Below are positions 19,489-62,940 of a DNA stretch of 64,000 bases, one piece after another. Location: positions 1 through 64,000 of the forward strand of contig JAFZUY010000024.1 of the NCBI GenBank assembly GCA_017618075.1, given 5' to 3'. Both the position numbers and the translations under genes were made by a program. The stretch comes from Lachnospiraceae bacterium. GTDB lineage: Bacteria; Bacillota; Clostridia; Lachnospirales; Lachnospiraceae. Position 1 is the first letter of the stretch; each line of letters begins with the position of its first letter. The notes beneath the pieces are model-generated. The model saw only the letters and a list, made by a program, of their open reading frames with translations, was not told the DNA's origin and did not search any database.

Positions 19489-19552
19489 AACCAATTGGGG
19501 ACGGTTCTTAAATGGTAAAAAAAGCCAAAACAGAACCGTCCCCGAATGGTCA
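19489..19552. repeat. REP-like palindrome, family B (GGGGACGGTTCT)
   Basis: GGGGACGGTTCT (19497) pairs with AGAACCGTCCCC (19532), a perfect 12-bp stem with a 23-base loop. It lies between convergent genes and may end both. Related copies are at 23327, 41754, 52239 and 58103. Confidence 0.8.
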
Positions 19553-23326: not shown

Positions 23327-23379
23327 CCGAGGGGATGGTTCTCACCGGCTCTGATTATTCAGATGAACCGTCCCCTCGG
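23327..23379. repeat. REP-like palindrome, family B
   Basis: CCGAGGGGATGGTTC (23327) pairs with GAACCGTCCCCTCGG (23365), a 15-bp stem with one T-G pair. It is in the gap between the isomerase and lipoprotein genes. No T tract follows, so it is better seen as a repeat than a terminator. Confidence 0.8.
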
Positions 23380-41754: not shown

Positions 41755-41790
41755 AAAAGTACCGAAGGGACGGTTCCTCCGGTACTTTTT
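41754..41790 (+). terminator. Terminator containing a family B REP core
   Basis: AAAAAGTACCG pairs with CGGTACTTTTT, an 11-bp stem with GGGACGGTTCCT in its loop region. It begins at the last base of the DUF5131 stop. Confidence 0.88.
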
Positions 41791-52238: not shown

Positions 52239-52292
52239 AACCAGAGGGACGGTTCTTCTGGTCCTTTTTGAACCAGGGGGACAGACCTTCAT
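52239..52292 (+). terminator. Terminator and family B REP core after the WYL gene
   Basis: ACCAGA...TCTGGT enclose GGGACGGTTCT and are followed by CCTTTTT. A second half-unit, AACCAGGGGGACAG, follows at 52270. Confidence 0.82.
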
Positions 52293-55335: not shown

Positions 55336-56190
55336 ATGAAAAAGAACAAAGACAAATTTAAACAACCCAGAATCAGCAAAAAAGCACTCACAGTCTTCAT
55401 GTCGCTCGTAATTTTGCTCTCAGGCATAGCTGAGGCACTATACTGCGCAGGCAGAATCGAGTGGGTGGTGGCTCTTCTTATGTGGGTACCGGCCGTCTCG
55501 GCATTCATTGCTTCAGGGGTAGCGATGGCAGATAACAAAGACAAATTCAACCCCATCAAACTTTTCAGATATGTCGGCCTCAGATTTTGCAATCCTTTAT
55601 ATGTTTTGCTCGGAGTAGTAATTCCTTTTATATATATTTTCATCCCTTACAGGATTTACTGGACCATGCATCCTGAAAACTTCGGCTACAGCGGAGTGGC
55701 ATTTTCGATTGTTTTAAAGGATCTGGCTTTATATACGGTAGTTTGCGTATTAATTTCGCTCATCACGGCGCTCGGCGAAGAGATTGGCTGGAGAGGCTTT
55801 ATGTTGCCGGCGTTCGTGCAGCGCTTAGGCGATATGGGTGCAATCGCAGCAGTCAGCATTTTCTGGTGCCTGTGGCATTTCCCGCTTCTTATATTCAGCG
55901 ATTATATGGAAGGCACGCCTGTCTGGTATAAGCTTATTGCATTCGTTCTTTGCATATTCCCTGTTGGAATCATCGCAGGCATCCTGACATTTTGGAGCAA
56001 GAGCGTCTGGCCCGCTGCATTTGTTCACGCAGCACACAATGCTTTCGATCAGACAGTATTCGATGTAATCACAATAGGCGACGACAAAAAGTTCTTCGTC
56101 AGCGAAACAGGCGTATTTACGATAGTCTGTGCGTGGGTGATTGCGATTATAATGCTTGTGATTTATATGAAGAAAAAGAAGAAAAAATAA
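55336..56190 (+). CDS. CPBP family intramembrane metalloprotease
   Basis: 284 residues with about seven membrane helices. All CPBP motifs are present: GEEIGWRGFMLPA, the histidine in FWCLWHFPLL and the third in FVHAAHNAFDQ. Second CPBP protein in the window. It may act as an immunity or prenyl-protein protease. The ribosome site (AAAAGG) is weak and the AbiE pair lies convergent to it. Confidence 0.85.
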   Translation: MKKNKDKFKQPRISKKALTVFMSLVILLSGIAEALYCAGRIEWVVALLMWVPAVSAFIASGVAMADNKDKFNPIKLFRYVGLRFCNPLYVLLGVVIPFIYIFIPYRIYWTMHPENFGYSGVAFSIVLKDLALYTVVCVLISLITALGEEIGWRGFMLPAFVQRLGDMGAIAAVSIFWCLWHFPLLIFSDYMEGTPVWYKLIAFVLCIFPVGIIAGILTFWSKSVWPAAFVHAAHNAFDQTVFDVITIGDDKKFFVSETGVFTIVCAWVIAIIMLVIYMKKKKKK

Positions 56191-56198
56191 AATAAAAA

Positions 56199-56220
56199 GC
56201 CGGAGGATTTTTCCTCCGGC
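56199..56220. terminator. Bidirectional terminator between the CPBP and AbiE genes
   Basis: GCCGGAGGA pairs with TCCTCCGGC around TTTT. On the minus strand a T-rich run follows directly. It is two bases from the AbiEii stop. Confidence 0.88.
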
Positions 56221-56221
56221 C

Positions 56222-57019
56222 TTACATTTTTTCCAAGTATGCCACGATACCATCTGCAATTTCGTGAATATCATTATCGAGCCATCTCTGGCGGGATTCA
56301 GATGCACGTTTGAGATACTGTTCATCCTTAAAAGTTGTTTTCAAACGTCTAACTATATCTGAAAAAGATTTTTCAAACATTCCTGAATCATCAAATATTA
56401 AAATCCGAATCGTATCTGAAATTTTTTCAGATGAAGCAATATCCTTGAGATAAAACATATCATATAAATCCCTGTATCTTCTGCTATTTGCTCCAAATTT
56501 TAAAAGAGAGCGCAGTTTCTCAACGAAAGATTGTTCCACTGTATTTTTTAAAAGTGTTGATCCTTCATCATCCATGCAAACATCAAAACAGTATTCTTCC
56601 TGCTCAATTTCAAGATGATTATGAACGCCGATGTCTATCTTACTGTTAACCGTATTTCCTGATTCATCGCTGATTCTTATTTCGATACTCTTACCCTTAT
56701 AGTCTTGATGCTTTAGTTCTGTGATTTCATTTTTCATTTCAATTCGAATACCATCGATACAGTTTAATCTCTGAACAAATTCGCGAATAGAATCATCTTG
56801 TAAAGAATAATGTATAAAGTCTAAATCTATATCTTTGGTCGCTCTACGATTGTTCTTCGTTAGACTCCTCATAACCACACCGCCTTTTATCGTAACATTT
56901 CTGCTAAAAGGTCCTTCAGATATGGCTTTTAAAACGATATCTTGACATACACGTGATGAAGCTAGTTCTGAAGTCAGTCCTTCTTCAAGATATGCATCCA
57001 TCAACTTCTGTAAATTCAA
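56222..57019 (-). CDS. AbiEii/AbiGii-family nucleotidyltransferase toxin
   Basis: 265 residues. The motif KGGVVMRSL followed by RATKDIDLDF fits the GG...DxD nucleotidyltransferase core of AbiEii toxins (type IV toxin-antitoxin, phage abortive infection). The start is a TTG at 57019 directly after the antitoxin stop; GAGGAGG lies at the right distance, and an ATG further in is a possible alternative. The gene is A/T-rich, suggesting transfer. Confidence 0.83.
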   Translation of the reverse strand: MNLQKLMDAYLEEGLTSELASSRVCQDIVLKAISEGPFSRNVTIKGGVVMRSLTKNNRRATKDIDLDFIHYSLQDDSIREFVQRLNCIDGIRIEMKNEITELKHQDYKGKSIEIRISDESGNTVNSKIDIGVHNHLEIEQEEYCFDVCMDDEGSTLLKNTVEQSFVEKLRSLLKFGANSRRYRDLYDMFYLKDIASSEKISDTIRILIFDDSGMFEKSFSDIVRRLKTTFKDEQYLKRASESRQRWLDNDIHEIADGIVAYLEKM

Positions 57020-57562
57020 TTATAAAACCTCCTCATCGAGCGCTTTGGATATCATTTTGCTCTTGGGGAAAACTGAAGCGTATTGTTGAATTCGCCATAT
57101 TTCAAGATCGTAAATAATCTCTCTGTAATGAACAATAATTTCTTTGTATAAGTCGTACGGCATAGAATTTTTAGCTCGTAAAAGTTCTATAAGCATTCGT
57201 TCTTTATCATAAATACGAATTTGTACATCGTTTTCTTCTTTTTCTTCAATTCCCAAATTAAAGATATCCTCTTTCACATAAATCTGTTTAATTCGATTAT
57301 CCGATAATTTGGCTGATTTCGAAGGAGTTGCAATGTCATATTTCTCCGGAATAAGATTAGTCAGTCCGTGAACATAAAAAGCATATTCCCCAGTCAAAAC
57401 AGCTTTCGGATATTTTTTCATAATAATTCCCAGTTCGGATACATGCTTTTTTGTAGAATATATTCCGTCTTCTATCTTAAAAACAGAGCCATCAGCCACC
57501 GCTTTGGCGAGTTTATAAGCATTTCCGTACTGTTCAATTGCTTCATTGTATGATAATAACAT
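57020..57562 (-). CDS. AbiEi-like antitoxin / transcriptional regulator
   Basis: 180 residues. An N-terminal winged-helix-like part (about 1-60) is followed by an AbiEi antitoxin-type C-terminal domain with YAFYVHGLTN and IRIYDKERMLIELLRAK. It should bind DNA before its own operon and block the toxin. It comes first in the pair and its stop touches the toxin start. Together they form an AbiE system. Confidence 0.82.
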   Translation of the reverse strand: MLLSYNEAIEQYGNAYKLAKAVADGSVFKIEDGIYSTKKHVSELGIIMKKYPKAVLTGEYAFYVHGLTNLIPEKYDIATPSKSAKLSDNRIKQIYVKEDIFNLGIEEKEENDVQIRIYDKERMLIELLRAKNSMPYDLYKEIIVHYREIIYDLEIWRIQQYASVFPKSKMISKALDEEVL

Positions 57563-57800
57563 TTATGTAATCCTCGGTATTTTCTATAAATTTACCTATG
57601 TTTACAAAAAAATGATACTTCAATACAAAAAGTTTGTCAATGAAGTTATATATTTAGTTTCATTAGGGAAAATAAGAGATGATAATGTAAACCTTATGAT
57701 GCTAATATATAGCAAATATCAATATGAATCAATTTGATCTTCTCTTTTTGCCTATAGAAATACGATACCTAAAATTGTGCATAATGCTAGCGGATATTTA
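57563..57800. other. Gene-free A/T-rich stretch upstream of the structured RNA
   Basis: No convincing gene. It includes a possible promoter (TTGCCT at 57748, TAAAAT at 57770, spacer 16) for a transcript running into the structured RNA at 57855. The rest shows no structure that I can name. Confidence 0.4.
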
Positions 57801-57823
57801 TAAGGTCGCAATTTGCGACCTTA
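57801..57823. promoter_or_regulatory. Perfect 23-bp palindrome
   Basis: TAAGGTCGCAA-T-TTGCGACCTTA is an 11-1-11 perfect inverted repeat. It shares AGGT..CAATTTG..ACCT with the palindrome at 53429, while the inner bases change together. It lies just before the structured RNA. Confidence 0.65.
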
Positions 57824-57854
57824 AAAGAAAAAAAGAGATTTTTAATATTCGGAG

Positions 57855-58070
57855 GTCCGTCCCAACCGTATACTTTACCGCGCTACAACACTAATTTGCC
57901 AAACAAGAAGAATATACTTATATATCACGCACAAACGGATATGTAAGTGTTGACGCGTTAGAGTTATACCGTATATAGAGGAACAAGTTCCGGAAACCTT
58001 TCTATCGCCCGGGCGCCATACAATGCTTACCAGGCAAGCAGCCCGGGCGACCCCAACCCCTGTTCCGGAC
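57855..58070. ncRNA. Candidate structured RNA, about 216 nt, class unknown
   Basis: A closing helix GTCCG/CGGAC (57855/58066) encloses two domains. Domain 1 has a 14-pair helix (57866-57882 with 57954-57971, one bulge and one G-U) and inside it AACACT/AGTGTT (57887/57946). Domain 2 has GGAACA/TGTTCC (57980/58061), TCGCCCGGG/CCCGGGCGA (58005/58042, nine perfect pairs) and TGCTT/AAGCA (58024/58036). It is GC-rich in an A/T-rich gap and has no credible gene. It does not show the tmRNA, RNase P or SRP signatures that I know. Strand is uncertain. Confidence 0.65.
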
Positions 58071-58102
58071 ATGTAAAATGAGTAAAAGGTGGATATAGAT
58101 TA

Positions 58103-58168
58103 GAGCCAGGGGGACGGTTCTGATGGTTCGAAAAGGACCGGAAGAACCGTCCCTCTGGTCTATTTTTC
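58103..58168 (+). terminator. Terminator from a family B REP palindrome
   Basis: AGCCAGGGGGACGGTTCT pairs with AGAACCGTCCCTCTGGT, an 18-base stem, followed by CTATTTTTC. It could end the structured RNA. Confidence 0.78.
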
Positions 58169-58196
58169 GGAGATGTGTCCCTAAATGGTCAGAAGG

Positions 58197-58225
58197 TTGA
58201 CAAATTGCTCATAAAAGAATAAAAT
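58197..58225 (+). promoter_or_regulatory. Promoter of the riboswitch-controlled surface protein
   Basis: TTGACA (58197) and TAAAAT (58220), spacer 17. A TCATAAAAGA word (58209) falls in the spacer. Confidence 0.7.
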
Positions 58226-58230
58226 ATTAA

Positions 58231-58312
58231 GCAAATAAGGGCAAACTATCCGAGAGGGTAGGACGCAAAGTTGTAAGCCTTAAAGTGTAAACGAAGGCGG
58301 TTTAACTGCAAT
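58231..58312 (+). promoter_or_regulatory. c-di-GMP-I (GEMM-I) riboswitch aptamer
   Basis: AGGGCAAAC, then a hairpin CTATCC-GAGA-GGGTAG (58246-58261) with a GNRA loop, then GGACGCAAAG (58261), then a hairpin with GCCTT...AAGGC. These are the conserved parts of the GEMM-I aptamer. A T-rich stretch after a weak hairpin (GCAATC...GGTTGC, TTTTTTG at 58338) suggests control by termination. The target gene encodes a surface protein, as is common for this class. Confidence 0.82.
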
Positions 58313-58397
58313 CAGATGAGAATGTCTTGTTTGGTTGCTTTTTTGTTTTTAGAGCAAAGGAGCGCGAACAGGCAAGAGTTGTTTTGGAGGAAAAAAT

Positions 58398-61300
58398 ATG
58401 AGAAAAAACGGAAAAAGAATTTTATCATTTATCTTGATGGCAGTTATGATATTTGCACTATTGCAGGTAGTTTGCACACCTATGTCCGTTAAAGCTGCAC
58501 CTAAACAGCATAAAGAACATACAGAAAGTCAATCTCATGATGAATGGACAAAGATAAGTTCTGAACAGGATTTAAGAGATTTCTTTTTAAATAAAGGGGG
58601 TAAGGGTTACTTGACAAAAACCATTACGCTCAATTCGCTTGTGGCTTTGTCTAATAAATATGAGTTTGATTTATGTCTTAATGGATACGGTATTATTCAA
58701 GAAGCATCAGACAATCCGGTAATACATGTAAGCTCAGGAACCTTAAATCTTTATGATATTGAAGGTAACTCGGGGTTTTTAACTCATAAAGAAAATGTTG
58801 ATGGTGAGGGCTTAGTTTTATCTGCTAACGCAACACTTAATATGTATGGCGGTAAAATTACTGGAAATAATGGGTGTGGAATAGAAATAAAATATAGCAC
58901 TGTGAACATGTATGGAGGAGAGATTTCTTCCAATACAGCAACACTTGGTGGAGGTGTATGTATACGTGACAATAAGGGAACATTTAATATGGTTGATGGA
59001 ATAATATCCAATAATAAAACTACAGAATACCCGGGTGGTGGAATTTATGTAGATAAAGGAACTGTTAATATATCCGGCGGAGAAATAACCAATAACTATT
59101 CGATAAGTAGTGGCGGTGGAATTATGTGTTGGGAGGGAAATCTCAATATAACCGGAGGAAAAATCACGTCTAATGAGGCGGGATTATATGGTGGTGGAGT
59201 AGAGGTACTCGATGGAAAATTATATATGTCCGGAGGGATTATTTCCGGAAATATCTCCAAAACTAGGGGAAATGGAATAGATTTAATTATAGGGGATTCA
59301 AAAGATGCCTCTTTTAAAGGAGGATACATCTATGATTCAATAGGTGATAAAGGGGAAAAGATTAATCCTTATGCTTTAAATTTTAATGCAAACGGTGGTA
59401 CCGGAGATATGCCCACACAATATCTTCCCAAGAATATAGAGATGCCTATCGGTAAAAATACATTCATTAATTCCGGAAAAGAATTTGTTGAGTGGAATAC
59501 AAAAGCGGATGGAAGCGGGGATTCTTATTCAGATAAAAGCCAGATAAAGATTAATAAAGATATAACCCTTTATGCTCAATGGGTAGAGCCTAATGTTACT
59601 AGTTATGAAGTTACTTTCAAAGTTGAAAATGGAACTTGGGATGGGGTATCAACAGAGGATAAAGTTATCAAGGTCAGTCGAAATAAAAACGAAATTAAAC
59701 TGCTCAGAGTTGGCGCAGATAAATTTCCTGAAGTGGGAAGTTACCCATATTCGTGTTATAAAGCAGGCAGTTGGGATAAGCCTGCAAACATGGTAATATC
59801 CCAAGATACTGTCTTTACGTATACATATAAATTCGATTCAAAAGTACTTACGATAACATTTGATCAGAATGATGGATCCGGAAAACAAACAACATATAAA
59901 ACAAAAGACAATCGTAAGCTGGATTCTCTTCCGAAGCCAACCAGAAAAGGATATGACTTCCTTGGATGGTACGATAGTGTCACAGGAGGAAATAAAATAA
60001 CCACAAATACGATGTTTGCTTCTGATACCACAGTTTATGCACGCTGGGAAGCACATAGTTATACCGTAAAATTTAATGCAAATGGTGGAAGCGGTTCAAT
60101 GAACAACCAGGCAAGGGTATATGATAGCACGGAACCGCTTACGGGAAATACCTTTACTTACGATGGTTATACATATATGTGCTGGAATACTGCTTCCGAT
60201 GGCTCGGGTGATAATTACTCTGATAAGGCTGTAGTCAACTTGACGGATGCAAAAGATGCAGAAATTATTCTGTATGCGAAATGGAAACCTAATTCATATA
60301 AGGTTACATTGAACGAATGCGGAGGAGCTATTAATAACGGTAACATAACAGGTTATACATGCGGAACGGGTGCGACACTTCCGACAGCAGCAGATATGAC
60401 TTTAACCGGTTATATTTTTGCAGGCTGGTATGATAATGCCGAATATAAGGGAATGGCAGTAACAGAGATATCAACCACAGATTTTGGCAATAAAGAGTAT
60501 TTTGCCAGCTGGACTCCAATCACATACACCGTTAAATTCGACGCAAACGGCGGAAGTGGCTCGATGGATGATGAAACAAGAACTTATGACACAATCTCTC
60601 CGCTTACTGAAAATACCTTTACTTACAATGGTTATACATATATGGGCTGGAATACTGCTTCCGATGGCTCGGGTGATAATTACTCTGATAAGGCTGTAGT
60701 CAACTTGACGGATGTAAAAGATGCAGAAATTACTTTGTATGCGCAATGGGATCCTAATGCATATAAGGTTACATTGAACGAATGCGGAGGAACTATTAAT
60801 AACGGTAACATAACAGGTTATACATGCGGAACGGGTGCGACACTTCCGACAGCAGCAGATATGACTTTAACCGGTTATATCTTTGCAGGCTGGTATGATA
60901 ATGCCGAATATAAGGGAACGGCAGTAACAGAGATATCAACCACAGATTTTGGCAATAAAGAGTATTTTGCCAGCTGGACTCCGAACACATACACGGTTAA
61001 ATTCGATGCCAACGGCGGAAGCGGAACGATGACTGACATGAATCGTACATATGCTGACGGCGCAACACTTGCCGCTAATGTATATTCATATGAATCACAT
61101 ACTTTTACAGGCTGGAATACAGCGTCTGACGGAACAGGAACGACATATGCAGATGGATATGATGGAGATTTGGCGAGTGATGAAGGAGCTATAGTAACCC
61201 TTTATGCTCTGTGGGATGATGTTGTTTATACTGTAAATGCAATCAATGACGGTAACGGAACAGCATCGGCAAGTGCTGATACAGGCATAAAAGATGCAAT

Positions 61301-61967
61301 CATAACAGTTTCCGCGACCCCCAATGACGGCTATCAATTTGCAGGTTGGGAAGTAGTTTCGGGAGGCATTACTCTTGACGATGCAACTGCAGTAACTACG
61401 ACATTTAAAGTCGGTACAGAGAACGTTGTAGTAAAGGCAACATTCGAAGAAATACCCGAAGAGCCTGAAAAACCGGCGCCCACACAGCCTTCAACACCAT
61501 CGGATTCCGAGTCCAACTCTGACCCCGAAATCCCCGAAAAAGACTGGCTTGACGATTTAAGACTTGATCTTAACATTGCGGATGAACTCGGCGGACCTCA
61601 GACGGTGGAATACAGCGGTGATTTTGCGCTCTCATATGACATCATGGAATACCTTAAAGAGCATACCGACATCACGCTCGTTTACCACGTAACATACGAA
61701 GGCGTTACATACACAGTCACAATTCCTGCAGGAAGGGCAATCGCAGACGCGAACATAAGCTGGTACGGTCCTTTGTGGCTCTTAGCTAATTACGGCGGCG
61801 ACAACGTTCCCGAAATCATCGCAGGAAGCGGCAAATACACAGTGGTTGCAGGCGATACATTATCGGCAATAGCCGAAAAGTTCGGCACAACCGTAGATTA
61901 CCTCGCCCAAAAGAATGGCATCAAAAACCCTGATTACATCATAGTTGGTCAGGTAATCGTTTACTAA
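58398..61967 (+). CDS. Secreted InlB-repeat/LysM surface protein under c-di-GMP control
   Basis: 1189 residues. A signal peptide (about 1-33) is followed by a right-handed-helix-like region (about 90-320) with short GGxIxxNxA repeats (YGGGVEVLDGKLYMSGG). Then come several InlB/Listeria-Bacteroides B-type repeats (about 325-1010; for example YTVKFNANGGSGSM). Residues about 553-707 and 708-862 are a near-exact duplication. The last 50 residues are a LysM domain (YTVVAGDTLSAIAEKFGTT), which binds peptidoglycan and so anchors it. TTGGAGG precedes the ATG. Confidence 0.85.
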   Translation: MRKNGKRILSFILMAVMIFALLQVVCTPMSVKAAPKQHKEHTESQSHDEWTKISSEQDLRDFFLNKGGKGYLTKTITLNSLVALSNKYEFDLCLNGYGIIQEASDNPVIHVSSGTLNLYDIEGNSGFLTHKENVDGEGLVLSANATLNMYGGKITGNNGCGIEIKYSTVNMYGGEISSNTATLGGGVCIRDNKGTFNMVDGIISNNKTTEYPGGGIYVDKGTVNISGGEITNNYSISSGGGIMCWEGNLNITGGKITSNEAGLYGGGVEVLDGKLYMSGGIISGNISKTRGNGIDLIIGDSKDASFKGGYIYDSIGDKGEKINPYALNFNANGGTGDMPTQYLPKNIEMPIGKNTFINSGKEFVEWNTKADGSGDSYSDKSQIKINKDITLYAQWVEPNVTSYEVTFKVENGTWDGVSTEDKVIKVSRNKNEIKLLRVGADKFPEVGSYPYSCYKAGSWDKPANMVISQDTVFTYTYKFDSKVLTITFDQNDGSGKQTTYKTKDNRKLDSLPKPTRKGYDFLGWYDSVTGGNKITTNTMFASDTTVYARWEAHSYTVKFNANGGSGSMNNQARVYDSTEPLTGNTFTYDGYTYMCWNTASDGSGDNYSDKAVVNLTDAKDAEIILYAKWKPNSYKVTLNECGGAINNGNITGYTCGTGATLPTAADMTLTGYIFAGWYDNAEYKGMAVTEISTTDFGNKEYFASWTPITYTVKFDANGGSGSMDDETRTYDTISPLTENTFTYNGYTYMGWNTASDGSGDNYSDKAVVNLTDVKDAEITLYAQWDPNAYKVTLNECGGTINNGNITGYTCGTGATLPTAADMTLTGYIFAGWYDNAEYKGTAVTEISTTDFGNKEYFASWTPNTYTVKFDANGGSGTMTDMNRTYADGATLAANVYSYESHTFTGWNTASDGTGTTYADGYDGDLASDEGAIVTLYALWDDVVYTVNAINDGNGTASASADTGIKDAIITVSATPNDGYQFAGWEVVSGGITLDDATAVTTTFKVGTENVVVKATFEEIPEEPEKPAPTQPSTPSDSESNSDPEIPEKDWLDDLRLDLNIADELGGPQTVEYSGDFALSYDIMEYLKEHTDITLVYHVTYEGVTYTVTIPAGRAIADANISWYGPLWLLANYGGDNVPEIIAGSGKYTVVAGDTLSAIAEKFGTTVDYLAQKNGIKNPDYIIVGQVIVY

Positions 61968-61993
61968 AGCTCATAAAAGAACCAACACACACA

Positions 61994-62036
61994 GGTTGCG
62001 AAGCGAAACCGCAAAGTTTCGTTTCGTAACCTTTTC
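61994..62036 (+). terminator. Terminator of the surface-protein gene
   Basis: GGTTGCGAAGCGAAAC pairs with GTTTCGTTTCGTAACC over 16 pairs (two G-U) around CGCAAA, followed by TTTTCTATT. Confidence 0.9.
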
Positions 62037-62238
62037 TATTATTGCCGGACATACGCCAACCATCATAAAAGGAACGCCGATGTATACCGACGGTAAGGTT
62101 TATCGATTTTACGATGAAAAGAAAGACTGTACTTTCTACGATATTGACTGCGGATGCGCATTCAATGATTCCGAATGGTTTCTAAACGGCAGACTGGCGT
62201 GTATAAGACTGGAGGATGAGGAAGTATTTTATATATAA
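62032..62238 (+). pseudogene. 3' remnant of a Ser/Thr-type metallophosphatase gene
   Basis: About 66 residues, from IIAGHTPTIIKG to the C-terminus. GHTPT followed by YRF, IDCGCAF and RLACIRLEDEEVFYI is the final third of calcineurin-like PrpE/Ser-Thr phosphatases. The first two-thirds with the metal-binding N-terminal motifs are missing, and the terminator of the neighbouring gene runs into it. A TTG at 61996 opens the frame but has no ribosome site. I take it as a relict. Confidence 0.7.
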
Positions 62239-62249
62239 AACCCAGATGG

Positions 62250-62255
62250 TATAAT
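62250..62255 (+). promoter_or_regulatory. Extended -10 promoter of the 62289 gene
   Basis: AGATGGTATAAT, 39 bases before the start. TCATAAAAGA (62261) follows in the leader. Confidence 0.55.
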
Positions 62256-62288
62256 TAAGATCATAAAAGATAAAGGAAGGAACACAAA

Positions 62289-62459
62289 ATGGAGACCTGG
62301 TATTACGAAGTTGTAAGCATAGACGGAGACTATGCAAATCTTAAAAGAATCGACATAGAAAGCGACGATTTAAAACTCGTGGCAAGAGCCTTGCTGCCGG
62401 CAGAGATTTATGAAGGCTGCAAGCTTAGGTATGAGTTGTTGCAGTATTATATGGAGTAG
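62289..62459 (+). CDS. Small conserved-type protein, unknown function
   Basis: 56 residues, starting METWYYEVVSIDGDYANLKR and with LVARALLPAEIYEGCKLRYE. Short proteins of this pattern occur across Lachnospiraceae without known function. AAAGGAAGG precedes the ATG. Terminator at 62484. Confidence 0.72.
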   Translation: METWYYEVVSIDGDYANLKRIDIESDDLKLVARALLPAEIYEGCKLRYELLQYYME

Positions 62460-62483
62460 ATCATAAAAGAATAGCAGAATGAG

Positions 62484-62521
62484 AAAACGCCCTGTCGATA
62501 ATTTTCGGCAGGGCGTTTTAT
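62484..62521 (+). terminator. Terminator of the 62289 gene
   Basis: AAAACGCCCTGTCG pairs with CGGCAGGGCGTTTT (one G-U), ending in Ts. Confidence 0.93.
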
Positions 62522-62617
62522 CTAAGGGCGGTTTATTGTACAGCGCTTCTTGTTAAAACTGTTAAGATTAAATCATAAAAGATATAAGAAAAACAGATTA
62601 TAGAAAGGAGCTTGCAT

Positions 62618-62911
62618 ATGGAAGAGAGAATCAAACTTGTTTTATCAGAAACTGATGTTGAGAGAATGGACTTTACAGTAGATGATGTTGTGACCGTAAA
62701 TGTACACGGATTAACCCGTAACGCTATGGTTAGGCTGCTTAAGAACATATCCTGCTTATGCAGGCAGGCCTTTACGATGCGTATAATACATGGTTTTAAC
62801 CACGGAACCATACTTAAAGATACTGTCAGAACCGAAGGCGTGTTTATGAGAACATACAAGATTGTACCGGATCAGATAAACCCCGGAGTTACAATGCTTG
62901 TTTTTGAATAA
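62618..62911 (+). CDS. Smr-like small protein
   Basis: 97 residues. VTVNVHGLTRNAMVRLLKN, MRIIHGFNHGTILKDTVR and INPGVTMLVF match the order of Smr motifs (H-G-L, HGxxxG, the final strand), although the TGRG-type glycine motif is altered to NHGT. It may bind RNA or DNA without cutting. AAAGGAG precedes the ATG at 62618. Second Smr-type gene after 48198. Confidence 0.75.
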   Translation: MEERIKLVLSETDVERMDFTVDDVVTVNVHGLTRNAMVRLLKNISCLCRQAFTMRIIHGFNHGTILKDTVRTEGVFMRTYKIVPDQINPGVTMLVFE

Positions 62912-62940
62912 AAAATGGTGTCAAAAAAAGTACTTTATGG

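Follow-up and report, generated by a model that had tools for sequence, protein, structure and literature searches.

A stretch of about 240 noncoding bases on the plus strand (57866-58104) of the 64,000-nucleotide Lachnospiraceae contig segment analyzed here (the window) may be a lineage-restricted noncoding RNA gene, a reading in which we place about half of our confidence. Its limits are the span of homology with a second copy in Lachnospiraceae bacterium G41 (74.4% identity), and the coordinates of the original prediction, 57855-58070, were thus too short, as conservation reaches 58104. At the level of sequence, an RNA gene is supported by homology across three genomes, a blocky pattern of conservation, lack of coding capacity, helices P2, P3 and P4 shared by the copies, a hairpin after all three of them and downstream genes that differ. 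We counted against it the lack of room for a promoter in G41, the chance-level folding of the G41 copy, the equal performance of the two strands, thin covariation, the improbability of P3 in two of three ensembles and the rarity of the element (3 of 31 genus genomes). The proposed transcript would be made from the plus strand, span approximately the region of homology and end at the hairpin that follows it. Its fold would be built around the P2 hairpin and a rigid arm of P3 and P4, leaving conserved stretches exposed as single strands, and the RNA would act in trans by binding a protein or another RNA instead of controlling the next gene. No two of the genomes have the same gene in that position, and in each a promoter-like site of that gene's own lies between it and the hairpin.

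Of 31 genomes in the genus, blastn detected the element in three, one of them the window's own. The two other copies belong to the MAG Tb.RUG.284 (contig JAEEOJ010000107.1, 94% identity to the window) and to G41 (contig FNEU01000012.1, 75%), whose record carries no MAG label and which is therefore probably an isolate. A covariance model built from the three copies, matching the window at 57868-58098, found a single match in each carrier genome. At E ≤1 it matched 7 of the 31 genus genomes, namely the three copies (E ≤1e-43) and four weak candidates (E 0.08-0.92, two of them inspected in alignment) that were not accepted. Searches with the model in 397 genomes of the family, 392 of the order and 291 of the class, counts that each include the window's genome and that overlap in some genomes, yielded no further accepted copy; the filters here were stricter and can miss weak matches. 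One match from the 397-genome search (32.2 bits, E 0.005) was rejected for lacking P3 and P4. Four blastn matches in the family (E 7.6e-5 to 8e-4) were also rejected, as they covered 24-29 query bases without the other conserved blocks; by eye, three of these fell where coding genes begin and the fourth in AT-rich sequence. Blastn detected no copy in plasmid or phage records, and the 15 loci found in viral contigs with four exact patterns matched the model at E 0.32 at best. An exact pattern recovered seven loci from 84,980 species genomes, two of which were the known G41 and Tb.RUG.284 copies, and the remaining five were rejected since none matched the model better than E 3. With copies in only two relatives, the RNA is probably real but very local. 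No paper on this RNA was found in the literature searched, and we claim its absence from print no further than that. If transcribed, it may be a new orphan RNA family, found as far as searched in three species of one Lachnospiraceae genus; by itself it answers no long-standing question.

An alignment of the window with G41, slightly longer than the element, had 71.6% identity over 250 gap-free columns. Identical positions formed runs of 17, 17, 17, 15, 14 and 11 bases, and only 3 of 5000 shuffles were as clumped by the sum of squared runs; the longest run was by itself ordinary (reached in 897 of 5000). Neighboring genes matched between the same two genomes had 79-88% identity over their main stretches, with the AbiE genes at 66%. 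The lower identity of the element relative to its neighbors, AbiE aside, together with the clustering of its matches, implies that it changes faster than they do and in a block pattern. A decaying intergenic remnant without function, inherited within a small clade, would likewise be rare and would likewise fall below its neighbors in identity (74% to G41), but it would hardly preserve discrete blocks and stems, and we consider this explanation very improbable. Indels of 1 and 4 bases within the body make a coding frame unlikely, and a protein-coding reading was rejected on these indels; the conservation is also not protein-like. Open reading frames lying wholly or partly in the gap, listed from 50 aa, reach at most 65 aa and include no convincing gene, in agreement with the original description of the gap as free of genes.

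The unusual folding that first drew attention to the region was reproduced. The plus strand of 57855-58070 reaches a folding energy of -66.2 kcal/mol, compared with a mean of -45.35 for shuffled sequences (z -4.78), and none of 200 shuffles was as good. For the minus strand of the same segment, too, folding is unusually good (z -3.57, 0 of 200). A 257-nt stretch of the window was beyond most shuffles (z -3.05, 1 of 200 as good), and the 263-nt G41 copy folded singly was at chance level (z -0.35, 72 of 200 as good). The energy of the three-copy alignment was low on both strands, with z -4.6 for plus and z -4.8 for minus and none of 200 column shuffles as low on either; the covariation component of the plus-strand value was ordinary (z -0.3). 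The element thus likely has RNA structure, though its fold as drawn here is tentative, and its assignment to the plus strand is based on the G-U pairs described below and from the position of the hairpin 3' of the body.

Three helices are shared by all copies (Table 1). P4, which corresponds to the GC-rich helix already proposed and counts ten pairs with its U-A pair, is paired in the three copies with invariant stem bases; it is the longest stem common to the window and G41, and a length of ten was reached in only 1 of 500 column shuffles. Its variable tip over an invariant stem behaves as an RNA arm would. P3, which encloses P4, is pairable and invariant in the three copies, with pair probabilities of 0.76-0.83 in G41, 0.05 in the window and 0.02 in Tb.RUG.284; in the window fold it competes with pairing of UCCGGAA (57989-57995) to UUCCGGA (58063-58069). 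The P2 stem is invariant in the three copies, with a pair probability of at least 0.93 in each. As all 22 pairs of P2, P3 and P4 are unvarying, covariation is silent about them.

Table 1 Features of the element and its surroundings in the window.
Feature	Position	Strand	Description
AbiEii gene	56222-57019		preceded by the putative AbiEi gene
Putative AbiEi gene	57020-57562	-	180-aa ORF
Weak promoter-like site	57748-57775	+	TTGCCT-16-TAAAAT, 9/12 match
Near-perfect palindrome	57798-57826		14-nt arms, 1 nt between
Alternative domain-1 helix ACUUUA/UAGAGU	57872-57877 with 57959-57964	+	pairs in three copies; pseudoknot with P1
Alternative domain-1 helix CACU/AGUG	57889-57892 with 57946-57949	+	pairs in three copies; incompatible with P1
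P1 (candidate long-range helix)	57891-57900 with 58088-58098	+	one bulge; added by RNAalifold
P2	57923-57941	+	hairpin UAUC-A-CG / CG-GAUA, 6 pairs, 6-nt loop
P3	57980-57985 with 58061-58066	+	GGAACA with UGUUCC, 6 pairs, encloses P4
P4	58005-58014 with 58041-58050	+	10-pair GC helix including one U-A, variable apical loop
Candidate terminator hairpin	58106-58168	+	palindrome arms 58106-58158, U-rich tail UCUAUUUUUC
c-di-GMP-I riboswitch	58230-58313		54.7 bits
Terminator hairpin at riboswitch	58308-58338		overlapped by the riboswitch 3' end
Surface-protein gene	58398-61967		LysM / InlB-repeat protein
56-aa protein gene	62289-62459		METWYYEVV...

A fourth, candidate helix (P1) would join distant parts of the element. 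No copy loses any of its 10 pairs, four of which differ in G41, with one altered on both sides; each of the four changed pairs is a G-U in one copy, a pairing available only on the plus strand. Of 400 shuffles that preserved conservation, 12 produced a stem that equaled the 7-pair core of P1 in length and in number of changes. When the complementary strand was shuffled, such a stem appeared in 28 of 400; it is absent from the real minus strand. Some stem with four changed pairs appeared in 80 of 500 plain shuffles. To two decimals, every single-sequence ensemble gives P1 a pair probability of zero, and a fold with P1, P2 and P4 lies above the minimum by 7.1 kcal/mol in the window, 2.3 in Tb.RUG.284 and 5.2 in G41. 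Two alternative helices of domain 1, one of which (CACU/AGUG) has a C-G to U-A double change in G41, belong to the best fold of the window at no cost and lie about 6 kcal/mol above the minimum in Tb.RUG.284 and G41. Over the whole structure of 32 pairs there is one double change, and the observed covariation values were reached in 171 of 500 shuffles. The homologues that were to be searched for compensatory changes exist and offer one double change each in P1 and in the alternative helix, but this is weak with three copies, two of which are 94% alike.

The larger architecture of the original prediction, a closing helix joining two domains, held only in part. In the 257-nt fold of the window the two domains are joined, and a helix of 5+2 pairs (57855-57862 with 58088-58094) closes them; this helix is not kept in G41, the homology does not extend to its 5' half, and the 216-nt fold of the segment first proposed has no joining helix. 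The nearest match found within the original coordinates to the closing helix as first described, GUCCG (57855-57859) with CGGAC (58066-58070), is complementary but in neither minimum-energy fold. The 6-pair tip and 4-pair base of the long bulged helix survive comparison with G41, but the five middle pairs are broken there.

A strong hairpin stands just 3' of the body in all three copies, followed by a U-run in two of them (window and G41), so that the terminator-like palindrome noted earlier at this position was found again. In the window (58097-58172) it folds to -45.2 kcal/mol and runs into UCUAUUUUUC. The G41 hairpin (-32.8 kcal/mol) is unrelated to it in sequence, has the tail GCUUUUUGC and was the only one called a terminator by a pattern scan. 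In Tb.RUG.284 the window's palindrome lies within a 100-nt stretch of -51.3 kcal/mol and its U-run is broken. The window hairpin is also a member of a dispersed palindrome, GGGACGGTTCT...AGAACCGTCCC, found at 19498-19542, 23332-23374, 41767-41777, 52246-52256 and 58111-58153, with four of these five places 13-70 nt past the end of an ORF. With one mismatch allowed, the window holds eight half-site matches against 0.56 expected; the window's genome has five exact full copies, related copies occur in other genomes of the genus, and a literature search on the core of the palindrome found nothing relevant.

Upstream of the element, the promoter proposed earlier does match in 9 of 12 positions and recurs in Tb.RUG.284, but five sites of this grade were found against 3.2 expected (sd 1.7), which is not clearly above chance. 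No promoter-like site was found upstream of the G41 copy, where 42 nt separate the stop codon of a surface-protein gene from the modeled start of the element. That gap holds a strong two-way terminator and so leaves no room for a promoter of the element's own, and transcription there would need read-through. Between the hairpin and the next gene there is a promoter-like site in the window (11/12), in Tb.RUG.284 (11/12) and in G41 (9/12), in numbers not clearly above chance. A short way 5' of the element, the window and Tb.RUG.284 have in common the near-perfect palindrome of Table 1 (-14.5 kcal/mol), behind which lies an A-rich tract; G41 has no match to the palindrome.

The gap that holds the element lies between the 180-aa ORF and the surface-protein gene. 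The ORF, without a Pfam match, is a putative AbiEi, named only from the AbiEii gene that it precedes. The surface-protein gene is itself preceded by a c-di-GMP-I riboswitch, the sole match in the window at an Rfam gathering score and located outside the element; it is found at the window and G41 loci. Its overlap with a terminator hairpin suggests, by inference, an ON switch. All three copies share a neighborhood that extends from a CPBP (Rce1-like) protease gene to a gene for a 56-aa protein, with the pieces in different order. The window has AbiE, element, riboswitch and surface protein; Tb.RUG.284 has AbiE, element and a RelB/RelE-like pair (names assigned by eye); and G41 has AbiE, riboswitch, two surface proteins and the element, with a 99-aa gene downstream. 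The element is therefore not tied to one gene.

This reshuffling, together with the equal structure of both strands and the G41 copy that has no room for a promoter, would also fit a DNA element, that is, a recombination, insertion or protein-binding site in a variable island whose hairpins act in DNA, and two nearly palindromic copies of GCCCGGGCG could then form an operator-like pair of sites. We regard such an element as unlikely, though with an appreciable share of the probability. One model match per genome and no flanking inverted repeat in the window (the two inverted-repeat pairs near the element are both hairpins, one on either side) are not what a dispersed mobile element would show, conservation extends over long stretches beyond the palindromes, and P1 is kept partly through G-U pairs, which are relevant only in RNA.

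Gene order bears equally on control in cis, in which the element would be a 3' UTR or a leader for a neighboring gene, for instance together with the c-di-GMP riboswitch. The G41 copy directly follows a surface-protein gene and the window copy lies ahead of the riboswitch and of a surface-protein gene from that family, but in Tb.RUG.284 the element sits between AbiE and the RelB/RelE-like pair, with neither riboswitch nor surface protein adjoining, and a strong hairpin and then a promoter-like site separate the element from the next gene; we therefore judge cis control improbable. An RNA partner of the adjacent AbiE toxin-antitoxin genes, given that AbiEii occurs at the locus in all three genomes and that the genes are adjacent and divergent in the window and Tb.RUG.284, is a far weaker candidate, as, of 31 genus genomes, AbiEii was found in 14 and the RNA in 3, leaving 11 AbiEii genomes without it, and the G41 AbiE genes lie about 9 kb away and inverted.

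The trans-acting RNA that we favor was compared with known classes. None of 4227 Rfam 15 families reached its gathering score within the element in any of the three copies tested, consistent with the initial description as an unassigned structured RNA, and the Rfam comparison proposed there, raiA included, gave no match at that score. Permissive scans (57600-58400 in the window) returned only sub-threshold matches to unrelated families, none of them raiA. Identity with raiA or another Rfam class was rejected on this basis. HEARO and the omega RNAs of IscB-TnpB are structured RNAs roughly 200 nt long that are associated with variable DNA, and the element resembles them in structure, size and setting. 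No match to the HEARO model was found in the Rfam scans, and no IscB-TnpB nuclease was recognized beside the element among neighboring ORFs surveyed by eye and eight window proteins searched with Pfam.

The element is similar to raiA in length (the raiA model has 209 positions), noncoding nature and occurrence in Clostridia. No raiA match over the cut-off (RF03072, 101.3 bits) was found in the three carrier genomes, the best score being 17.8 bits elsewhere in G41, in a search that had no positive control, as the 14 of 14 control genomes were also below the cut-off. The element might be related to a known RNA, above all raiA/ModT, and too far diverged for Rfam to reach; such a relative would have a similar size and might occupy a slot that is empty in the carriers, although no control genome was over the cut-off either and the window's own genome is 89% complete. 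The lack of any raiA match in the permissive scans and the contrast between 3 of 31 genus genomes and a family said to occur in more than 2,500 species (PMC11706538) leave such kinship with little credibility. ModT, the raiA RNA of C. difficile, is described as having a SigA promoter, acting in trans and affecting c-di-GMP (PMC11706538). The c-di-GMP riboswitch near the element, present at two of three loci only, offers a suggestive analogy. A new, lineage-specific trans-acting RNA might fill the regulatory role of raiA/ModT in the species that yielded no raiA, with a link through its locus to surface proteins under c-di-GMP control, and might be pseudoknotted if P1 and the ACUUUA/UAGAGU helix coexist; we give this fuller scenario only a slim chance. 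The element also resembles the orphan structured RNAs from comparative genomics, as described for instance in PMC8040213, in being intergenic and conserved with a predicted structure and no function, and differs from them in having only three known copies.

The island around the element (55336-62913) carries toxin-antitoxin and surface-protein genes beside it, and across the three related genomes several of its pieces, among CPBP protease, AbiE, surface-protein and small genes, are reshuffled in varied order or orientation. The gene for the 56-aa protein is a conserved small gene, without a Pfam match and with one match each in 23 of the 31 genus genomes.
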